Below are positions 45,779 to 48,510 of a DNA stretch of 50,308 nt, piece by piece (position 1 is the first letter of the stretch; each line of letters opens with the position of its first letter). Under the pieces are notes generated by a model that was not told the DNA's origin, ran no database searches, and saw only the letters and a list, made by a program, of their open reading frames with translations. Both the position numbers and the translations under genes were made by a program. Source of the stretch: Kofleriaceae bacterium (lineage in GTDB: Bacteria > Myxococcota_A > Polyangia > Haliangiales > Haliangiaceae); contig JANTGM010000036.1 of NCBI GenBank assembly GCA_024762925.1, positions 1-50,308 on the forward strand, read 5' to 3'.

Positions 45779-47047
45779 ATGCTAGATGTCGCTCGATTGG
45801 ATGATGCCGCTCGTCGTGGTCCCGAAGTTGTTACGCTAATCGAAGAGTTTCGAGGAATCGAGGCTACTCGCAAGGAGTTGCAGGGAACGCTAGATCATCT
45901 TCGCGCCCAGAGGAATTCTGCCAACAAGCGCATGGCTGCCCTCGACAAGAAATCAGAGGAATTCGCTGCTGCTCGAGATGAGATGCGTGACGTCTCCAAA
46001 CGGGTGAAAGCGGGTGAACAGCAACTCGTTGAGCTCGAAGCCAAGAGCCACGATTTGCGTATGCACATTCCCAACGCGCCTCACGAATCGGTGCCCGATG
46101 GCGAGGGCGAAGAGGAGAACCAAGAGCTCTCTACATGGGGCGAAAAACCGAGCTACGATTTTGCTCCAAAGACGCATTGGGATATTGGTGAGGCGCTAGG
46201 CATTCTCGACTTCGAAGCGGGCGCAAAGCTCTCGGGTTCGCGTTTCTGCGTGCTGCGTGATCATGGTTCTCGGCTCAATCGTGCGCTCATAAGCTTCATG
46301 CTCGATGTGCATGCCGAGAAGGGCTACCGCGAGGTTTGGCCGCCGGCTCTGGTAAAGCGCCCTGCCCTTGAGGGAACGGGGCAATTGCCCAAATTCGAGG
46401 ATGACGCCTTCAAAACTGCAGGAGAAACAGAGTATTTCTTAATTCCCACGGGCGAAGTTCCTGTAACGAATCTGCACGCTGACGAGATTCTCGATCGCGA
46501 CCAACTTCCCATCAAATACACTGCCTACACGCCGTGTTTTCGTGCGGAGGCAGGAAGCTACGGCAAGGATACACGAGGCCTGATTCGCCAGCACCAGTTC
46601 GACAAGGTCGAGCTTGTACAATTCATCGAACCGGATAAGAGCTACCAGGCATTGCTCGAACTTCGCGAGAGTGCAGAGGAGGTGCTTCGTCGCCTCGAAC
46701 TGCACTACCGCGTTGTCAACTTGTGCACTGGTGACCTTGGGTTTTGTGCAAGCCAAACCTTTGATATCGAAGTGTGGCTTCCCGGGCAGGACACCTACCG
46801 AGAGATCTCATCTTGTTCGAATTTTGAGGATTACCAGGCTCGTCGCGCGAAGATTCGCTACCGACCCGAAGTTGGGGCAAAGCCAAGGATGGTTCACACC
46901 GTGAATGGATCCGGCCTGGCGGTGGGACGAACGATTGTCGCGATCTTGGAGCAGTACCAGCGCGCTGATGGAAGCGTGGCAATTCCAAAGGCACTCCAGC
47001 CGTACATGGGCGGTCTTCAGAGCATCGATCTGCCTGTGGCTCCCTAG
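45779..47047 (+). CDS. serS: Seryl-tRNA synthetase
   Basis: SerRS charges all tRNA-Ser species and also serves tRNA-Sec in selenocysteine users. The 422-residue protein has the N-terminal two-helix coiled coil that grips the long variable arm. Its class II core has [28 protein letters not shown], motif 2 ([27 protein letters not shown]) and motif 3 ([19 protein letters not shown]). ATG 45779 is chosen because GAGG precedes it at about 8 nt and [17 protein letters not shown] is the family N-terminus. Four tRNA-Ser genes follow within 1.5 kb. Confidence 0.96.
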
Positions 47048-47118
47048 CTGACTTCGATGCGAAAGCCGATTCAGCAGCCGATTCAGCGCGGGAAAATTTC
47101 AATCCGCGCCTGATGCCC

Positions 47119-47146
47119 TTTACAAGCAGGATTCGATCTCTATACT
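47119..47146 (+). promoter_or_regulatory. Sigma-70-type promoter for the tRNA-Ser(TGA) gene
   Basis: TTTACA (47119-47124), a 16-bp spacer and TATACT (47141-47146) precede the tRNA by 16 bp. The short leader expected from this promoter suits a tRNA unit. Confidence 0.7.
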
Positions 47147-47162
47147 CCGGGTCCTGTTACCA

Positions 47163-47248
47163 GGAGGAGTGGCCGAGCGGTCGAAGGCAGCGGTCTTGAA
47201 AACCGCCGTACGAGAGTACCGGGGGTTCGAATCCCTCCTCCTCTGCCA
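47163..47248 (+). tRNA. tRNA-Ser (anticodon TGA)
   Basis: The 86-nt gene folds as a class II tRNA with acceptor GGAGGAG, the anticodon loop CTTGAAA (anticodon TGA), a long variable arm (TACGAGAGTA) and the T loop TTCGAAT. CCA is encoded. It reads UCA and, by wobble, other UCN codons. It lies 115 bp after serS. Confidence 0.95.
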
Positions 47249-47351
47249 AACGATACTTTGACAATCGAATAGTTTTCTTAGGTATAGAGTAAGACTCTGA
47301 TTTAACGATTTGGAGTGTTTGTATTGGGCTATGTCCTTGTAAACACTTCAT

Positions 47352-47438
47352 GGAGGGGTGACCGAGCGGCCGAAGGTACCAGTTTGCTAAATTGGCGTGG
47401 GGGCAACTCCACCATGGGTTCGAATCCCATCTCCTCCG
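47352..47438 (+). tRNA. tRNA-Ser (anticodon GCT)
   Basis: Acceptor GGAGGGG pairs with CTCCTCC; the anticodon loop TTGCTAA gives GCT, reading AGC and AGU. The variable arm is long, as in class II tRNAs. CCA is not encoded (CAA follows the discriminator G). Its 3' part is the founder of a 78-bp tandem array. Confidence 0.95.
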
Positions 47439-47597
47439 CAATAGGGCGAAAGAGGGACGATTCCTGCTTTTTGTTGTGTTTCAACAAAAGAGCGGGTTGG
47501 ACTCCCATCTCCTCCGCAATAGGGCGAAAGAGGGACGATTCCTGCTTTTTGTTGTGTTTCAACAAAAGAGCGGGTTCGAATCCCATCTCCCGCAATA
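47416..47597 (+). repeat. 78-bp tandem array seeded by the tRNA-Ser(GCT) 3' end
   Basis: Units start at 47416, 47494 and 47572 (the last is partial). Each begins with a T-arm-like GGGTTCGAATCCCAT or a variant (GGGTTGGACTCCCAT in copy 2), then the acceptor strand CTCCTCCGC, a purine-rich stretch and a stem-loop CTTTTTGTTG-TGTTT-CAACAAAAG. The stem-loop may end tRNA transcripts. Copy 3 has a 2-bp deletion in the acceptor part. Confidence 0.92.
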
Positions 47598-47670
47598 GTT
47601 TCCTTGGCTTTTGCTGCCCAGAACCCTGGACAGCAATCCTCCAAAGACACTAACTACTACTACGCGACTC

Positions 47671-47743
47671 GGATCCGTGGCTCAACGGATAGAGCACCTG
47701 TCTACGGAACAGGGGTGTGGAGGTTCGAATCCTCCCGGATCCA
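47671..47743 (+). tRNA. tRNA-Arg (anticodon ACG)
   Basis: Acceptor GGATCCG pairs with CGGATCC; the anticodon stem CCTGT/ACAGG encloses CTACGGA, anticodon ACG. CCA is not encoded. A34 must be deaminated to inosine by TadA to read CGU, CGC and CGA; tadA is the next gene, 33 bp away. Confidence 0.95.
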
Positions 47744-47776
47744 CTACTGATCGTTCAGTTCGAATACGCAATCTCC

Positions 47777-48262
47777 ATGACCGAAACCAACGCCGAAGCC
47801 GATGAACGCTTCATGCGTGAGGCGATTGCCGAGGCTGTACTCGCTGGCGATGCTGGCGATGTCCCGGTGGGGTGTGTGATTGTTGCTGATGGCGAGATCA
47901 TCGCCCGAGGACACAATCGCCGAGAAGCCACTGGGGACCCAACCTCACATGCGGAAGTTGAAGCCTTGCGTGCTGCAAGCCGCCACTTTGGTCGCTGGCA
48001 TATTGAAGGCACACTCTATGTGACTCAGGAGCCGTGCCCTATGTGTGCGGGTGCCTTGGTGAACTCTCGAGTGGAGCGGCTTGTGTATGGGTGCAAGAAT
48101 CCAAAGGCAGGTGCTGTCGACTCTCTGTTCACAATTGTGAGTGATCCCCGGCTCAATCACCGAATGCCGGTGACAAGTGGGGTTCTCGCCGATGCGTGTG
48201 GCGAGTTGTTGACGAGCTTTTTCCAGGCAATCCGTGCCAAGAGGCTTGAGGGCAAGACATAG
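47777..48262 (+). CDS. tadA: tRNA-specific adenosine deaminase TadA
   Basis: TadA converts A34 to inosine in tRNA-Arg(ACG). The 161-residue protein has the zinc and proton-shuttle motif HAEVEAL, PCPMCAGALV with the other two zinc cysteines, and VPVGCVIV near the N-terminus. ATG 47777 is used because the longer frame from 47717 would run inside the tRNA-Arg gene. No clear ribosome-binding site is present. It lies directly after its substrate tRNA gene. Confidence 0.94.
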   Translation: MTETNAEADERFMREAIAEAVLAGDAGDVPVGCVIVADGEIIARGHNRREATGDPTSHAEVEALRAASRHFGRWHIEGTLYVTQEPCPMCAGALVNSRVERLVYGCKNPKAGAVDSLFTIVSDPRLNHRMPVTSGVLADACGELLTSFFQAIRAKRLEGKT

Positions 48263-48298
48263 GAGCGGCCCATCCGTGGCAGCTATCACAAGACTTTT

Positions 48299-48386
48299 GG
48301 AGAAGTGACCGAGCGGCCGAAGGTGCACGATTGGAAATCGTGTGTATCGCAAGGTACCGCGGGTTCGAATCCCGCCTTCTCCGCCA
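48299..48386 (+). tRNA. tRNA-Ser (anticodon GGA)
   Basis: Class II tRNA with acceptor GGAGAAG/CTTCTCC, the anticodon loop TTGGAAA (GGA, reading UCC and UCU), a long variable arm and encoded CCA. It begins 36 bp after the tadA stop, so it is probably on the same transcript. Confidence 0.95.
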
Positions 48387-48422
48387 TCTTTGCTGGACTG
48401 GATACCAGCACAATACGACTTA

Positions 48423-48510
48423 GGAGAGGTGTCCGAGCGGTCGAAGGTGCTTGATTCGAAATCAAGTGTAGCGCGAGCTACCGGGGGTTCGAATCCCCCC
48501 CTCTCCGCCA
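48423..48510 (+). tRNA. tRNA-Ser (anticodon CGA)
   Basis: Class II tRNA with acceptor GGAGAGG/CCTCTCC, the anticodon loop TTCGAAA (CGA, reading UCG), a long variable arm and encoded CCA. It is 36 bp after tRNA-Ser(GGA). Confidence 0.95.

Follow-up and report, generated by a model that had tools for sequence, protein, structure and literature searches.

Known arrangements that combine tRNAs with protein-coding genes include mixed tRNA-mRNA operons and the "tRNA punctuation" of mitochondria. In E. coli, tyrT carries terminal repeats (rtT), a tandem series whose units copy the 3' end of the tRNA before them. Among the closest systems to the locus described here are the serS-tRNA-Ser and tadA-scr-dnaX regions of the Bacillota, which we take to be of the B. 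subtilis type. A search of the literature on serS/tRNA/tadA gene order yielded nothing useful.

The window, by which we mean the whole stretch of DNA analysed, is contig C36 (50,308 bases) of a draft assembly of 6.79 Mb in 246 contigs. Its features are listed in Table 1. Four tRNA-Ser genes lie directly 3' of serS, all on the plus strand, and span 1348 bp end to end; tRNA-Arg(ACG) and tadA sit between the UGA/GCU and GGA/CGA pairs. Under random placement, the chance of finding four tRNAs within 1.4 kb 3' of serS and on one strand is about 1e-16. ARAGORN and Rfam bear out the coordinates and anticodons of the preliminary description, which had reported serS followed by tRNA-Ser UGA, GCU, GGA and CGA within 1.35 kb, and its statement that these decode every Ser codon is correct under standard wobble rules, which let these four tRNAs read all UCN and AGY codons. 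Its further claim, that the enzyme is encoded together with its whole substrate set, is right as to joint encoding, but the block is not a serine-only one, as it also holds tRNA-Arg(ACG), tadA, SRP RNA and dnaX. No gene other than these block members was found between 45.7 and 50.3 kb. Divergent from serS on the minus strand (41450-45754) is a 1434-aa ORF in which Pfam recognizes many TPR repeats. It starts with a zinc-ribbon-like segment (CKSCG...CPKC) and also carries low-complexity repeats rich in Pro and Gly.

Table 1. Features of the serS-dnaX region of the window.
Feature	Coordinates	Strand	Evidence and remarks
serS, seryl-tRNA synthetase (422 aa)	45779..47047	+	TIGR00414 514 bits (NCBIfam serS cut-off 301.65 bits); Pfam Seryl_tRNA_N, tRNA-synt_2b
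Promoter-like site TTTACA-16-TATACT	47119..47146	+	16 nt 5' of the first tRNA, tRNA-Ser(UGA)
tRNA-Ser(UGA)	47163..47248	+	ARAGORN and Rfam
tRNA-Ser(GCU)	47352..47439	+	ARAGORN and Rfam
Tandem repeat, 78-bp unit, 2.4 copies	47416..47598	+	Unit comprises the tRNA-Ser(GCU) 3' end and spacer
tRNA-Arg(ACG), without encoded CCA	47671..47744	+	ARAGORN and Rfam; sole copy found in the draft
tadA, tRNA adenosine(34) deaminase (161 aa)	47777..48262	+	NF008113 159 bits (cut-off 150); PDB TadA 7cph, 2b3j
tRNA-Ser(GGA)	48299..48386	+	ARAGORN and Rfam
tRNA-Ser(CGA)	48423..48510	+	ARAGORN and Rfam
SRP RNA (ffs), bacterial small type	48584..48678	+	Rfam RF00169 71.4 bits
Intrinsic terminator, 11-bp stem GGGCCGGTCAC/GTGACCGGCCC then TTTTCTTT	48680..48730	+	Own terminator scan, loops up to 25
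dnaX, DNA polymerase III gamma/tau, truncated by contig end	48776..50308	+	TIGR02397 415 bits

In gene content and strand the window matches a conserved block. The relatives that carry names are Myxococcota (Myxococcales, Kofleriaceae and Deltaproteobacteria MAGs). In Myxococcota the recurrent order, on one strand, is serS, tRNA-Ser(UGA), tRNA-Ser(GCU), tRNA-Arg(ACG), tadA, tRNA-Ser(CGA), tRNA-Ser(GGA), SRP RNA and dnaX, and it is present in most of the family- and order-level loci examined. A tRNA-Ser lies downstream of tadA at 58 of 73 Myxococcota tadA loci, a tRNA-Arg upstream at 48, and all four tRNA-Ser with the tRNA-Arg at 38, and the downstream tRNA-Ser is found at 19/23 loci in Omnitrophota, 18/28 in Actinomycetota, 12/26 in Methylomirabilota, 3/8 in Chloroflexota, 8/25 in Acidobacteriota and 1/24 in Pseudomonadota; these counts understate the linkage, since the loci counted include some that are not true TadA (for example, guanine-deaminase-like proteins). 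One Methylomirabilota locus (L215) has the complete block and others have large parts of it, and Bacillota loci picked by serS (such as L320, L321, L340 and L343) read serS-tSer-tSer-tArg-tadA-tSer-tSer. The assertion that tRNA isoacceptor families are normally scattered therefore does not stand here: in Myxococcota clustering is usual, and the order is also found complete in a Methylomirabilota genome, largely in several Bacillota and in parts in four more phyla. In the suggested comparison of synteny in relatives, the order recurred across Myxococcota, and tadA lay without the tRNAs in several families of the class (L151, L154-L159, L161-L163 and L165). At L168 the block is split. The families with tadA alone live without the linkage, and this counts against the explanation that we favor below.

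The window does not follow the usual order UGA, GCU, Arg(ACG), tadA, CGA, GGA, because its last two tRNAs are swapped to GGA, CGA. The same swap is found in another Myxococcota genome (L256) and in an Acidobacteriota locus (L300). Anticodon switching as the origin of the swap was rejected for the GGA gene, whose body matches the GGA genes of relatives. The CGA gene of the window is almost as near to GGA genes as it is to CGA genes.

By the preliminary description, further tRNA-Ser genes elsewhere would count against its reading if they made the cluster redundant. In the draft this applies to GCU only: the sole other tRNA-Ser found is a GCU gene (C16:447-536), strongly unlike the cluster GCU gene in sequence, and there was no second copy of UGA, GGA or CGA in a census of this incomplete draft, drawn from tRNA search matches and ARAGORN runs on the loci, that is itself incomplete (Thr-GGU, for example, was not recovered). 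The C16 gene belongs to one of three tRNA arrays in the draft (G000) in which several members score low: C16:203-6118 (Gly, Ser-GCU, Lys, Lys, Tyr, His, Phe, Gln), C72:24983-27189 (Asp, Pro, Ile, Leu x3) and C40:351-509 (Gln, Asn). These arrays may derive from a mobile element.

In many relatives all high-scoring tRNA-Ser genes lie within the block. We searched 28 genomes with a covariance model derived from 45 tRNA-Ser genes. Exactly four matches of at least 85 bits were obtained in 18 relatives, none of them outside the cluster. For G039 and G040 the strong matches were spread across several contigs. Five genomes (G001, G002, G003, G009 and G035) had no strong match and likewise no convincing tadA, as if the block were absent from the assembly as one unit. 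Twenty weaker matches were retrieved, and proved to be 16 tRNA-Tyr, two tRNA-Leu and two extra tRNA-Ser (UGA in G003, GCU in G005).

Signals for transcription were sought as sigma-70-like sites (9/12 or better). Such a site lies within the 60 nt 5' of tRNA-Ser(UGA) in 45% of 51 Myxococcota sequences (2% of shuffles); for 10 Bacillota sequences the figure is 70% (8% of shuffles). Ahead of the tRNAs further along the Myxococcota cluster it is 2-7%. The site in the window is the only match in 45500-48900, where shuffles give 1.5, so that it is weak evidence by itself. Our terminator scan (loops up to 25) found no terminator in the window between serS and the SRP RNA, and the only terminator between serS and dnaX, a strong hairpin followed by a run of T, comes after the SRP RNA. 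The 115-bp gap between serS and the first tRNA thus carries a promoter-like site and no terminator. No T-box leader was matched upstream of serS in 45500-48900, even at E values up to 1 (Rfam). The likeliest interpretation of these signals is a single unit comprising the tRNAs, tadA and SRP RNA, which would also be fed by read-through from serS. The intergenic spacers of the window (32-231 bp) are longer than those of tight tRNA operons, and weak promoters escaping detection could count against a single unit. A single transcript is not universal, since terminators separate tRNA-Arg from tadA in other Myxococcota clades (24% of spacers).

We consider the locus to be an old bacterial housekeeping block, wider than serine and common to many bacteria, and best called an old conserved translation block. 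The reading that we favor, at a probability of roughly 0.68, is that one precursor is made from the promoter in the serS-tRNA gap together with serS read-through, and that the enzymes are thereby made with their substrates. The precursor would run from 47119 to 48730, ending at the terminator at 48680, and would carry the four tRNA-Ser, tRNA-Arg, tadA and SRP RNA. Read-through from serS would add to it, because there is no terminator between serS and the first tRNA. RNase P and RNase Z (or exonucleases) would then excise the tRNAs, and SerRS and TadA would be produced in step with their tRNA substrates. The enzyme-with-substrates idea of the preliminary description is in this respect sound. 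Two enzyme-substrate pairs of translation, SerRS/tRNA-Ser and TadA/tRNA-Arg(ACG), occur in one block across distant phyla, and this block-wide pairing makes dosage coupling testable.

The block might instead be a fossil gene order, in which genes that were neighbors in an early ancestor remained adjacent but are not regulated jointly, every one having a promoter of its own. That dnaX and SRP RNA are retained, though they have no enzyme-substrate tie to the serine tRNAs, would fit such a history, as would the terminator that sets dnaX apart and the loss of the linkage in some families. However, a promoter signal at the first tRNA alone, the absence of internal terminators in the window, a single strand throughout and retention of the block across phyla speak against it, and we regard this explanation as improbable, though deserving of attention.

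Origins of the cluster itself other than ancient neighborhood fare worse. In favor of a recent origin of the clustered tRNA-Ser genes from one another by tandem duplication, the CGA and GGA genes of the window are rather similar (the CGA gene scores 62.0 against the window GGA gene and 64.5 against the best CGA gene elsewhere). But the nearest neighbor of 135 of 138 tRNA-Ser genes is the same isoacceptor in another genome, indicating old neighbors and not recent local copies, and several phyla share one order of the four tRNAs, which lie on both sides of tadA. The sequences thus already disfavor duplication, which we judge very improbable. A mobile or phage-like tRNA array is less credible still: low-scoring arrays do occur on other contigs of the draft (C16, C72 and C40), and the tRNA 3'-end repeat at 47416-47598 resembles possible leftovers of integration, but core genes lie to either side (serS, tadA, SRP RNA and dnaX) and are conserved across the phylum, and the 45.7-50.3 kb interval holds no further gene. 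Synteny already speaks against such an array. The 78-bp tandem repeat itself was absent from all relatives examined, and Rfam gave no rtT match for it.

The main known substrate of TadA is tRNA-Arg(ACG). The window protein has both catalytic motifs, HAE (DPTSHAE) and PCxxC (PCPMC), and is predicted to edit A34 of the adjacent tRNA-Arg(ACG). A tRNA-Leu(AAG) was observed in the draft (C128:16298-16383 and C72:27114-27189), and no tRNA-Leu(GAG) was found in the incomplete census; tRNA-Leu(AAG) may therefore be another A34 substrate of TadA in this genome.

In many relatives the junction between tRNA-Arg and tadA is close. With tadA starts taken as the first in-frame start, the frame coming from protein alignment, 27 of 43 distinct Polyangia-type loci have tadA beginning no more than 8 nt past the discriminator base of tRNA-Arg (ATG in 19; loci L040-L108 and L149-L168, abutting starts 1-8 nt after tRNA-Arg(ACG)). 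Starts like MTDEQLM, MTNDEHWM and MMTDDQWM agree with the N-terminus of TadA. At 39 of 46 loci the tRNA-Arg gene does not encode the CCA, and RNase Z cuts CCA-less tRNA precursors just after the discriminator. Excision of the tRNA would therefore leave a leaderless tadA message where tadA starts 1-8 nt past it. Leaderless mRNAs are known in bacteria (PMC3848588, PMC4681348). We tentatively suggest, from gene positions, that many Polyangia might make TadA only upon maturation of tRNA-Arg(ACG), a bacterial form of tRNA punctuation, though we think it doubtful; if true, it couples the editing enzyme to its substrate tRNA. Shine-Dalgarno matches did not clearly separate tRNA-abutting tadA genes from others (mean longest match 2.8 versus 3.3), in a comparison set that included a few non-Polyangia loci. 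In the window, tadA does not abut the tRNA; its ATG follows a 33-nt spacer with no evident Shine-Dalgarno sequence. In E. coli, mRNAs and tRNA-Arg(ACG) compete for TadA, and mRNA editing drops when the tRNA is increased (PMC13170351). Because off-target editing tracks the supply of tRNA-Arg(ACG), joint production would have a plain benefit: by analogy with E. coli, linked production would keep the enzyme occupied.

Four genomes have the same block with tRNA-Arg(GCG), namely the Chloroflexota G057, G161 and G174 and the Omnitrophota G056. In all four the catalytic Glu of TadA is replaced by V or A (HAV, HAA) and the zinc ligands are kept. The Glu-less loci are L119/L368, L120/L431, L262/L429 and L263/L430. 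Glu is present at 77/77 distinct tRNA-Arg(ACG) loci and 0/2 GCG loci (Fisher p 0.0003), two further GCG loci having been left out as duplicate TadA sequences. The Chloroflexota are possibly inter-related, so there were perhaps two independent events. Deaminase searches showed no better TadA in the Glu-less genomes. Possibly TadA activity and its A34 substrate were lost together while the protein was retained, as these sequences would suggest. A known case of lost activity is the eukaryotic subunit ADAT3, which PDB 7nz7 annotates as inactive. Genomes with a GCG tRNA and a Glu-less TadA constitute a natural experiment.

Compared with known systems, the window repeat is like tyrT rtT in that its tandem units copy the 3' end of the tRNA just upstream, here tRNA-Ser(GCU); it differs in its 78-bp unit, in having no Rfam rtT match and in having been encountered in this genome only. 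The E. coli K-12 serV-argV-argY-argZ-argQ cluster also places tRNA-Ser(GCU) directly 5' of tRNA-Arg(ACG), but it is without serS, tadA and the other tRNA-Ser and has four tRNA-Arg copies. As judged from the genes alone, tRNA punctuation is approached in the many Polyangia relatives whose tadA start abuts the tRNA-Arg 3' end, whereas the window ATG is 33 nt away. In the Bacillota loci L320, L321, L340 and L343, serS, tRNA-Ser(UGA), tRNA-Ser(GCU), tRNA-Arg(ACG), tadA, tRNA-Ser(CGA) and tRNA-Ser(GGA) occur in the shared block order. Bacillota, unlike the window, usually insert tRNA-Arg(CCU) before tadA, and the window is set apart from them by its GGA/CGA swap and its tRNA 3'-end repeat.
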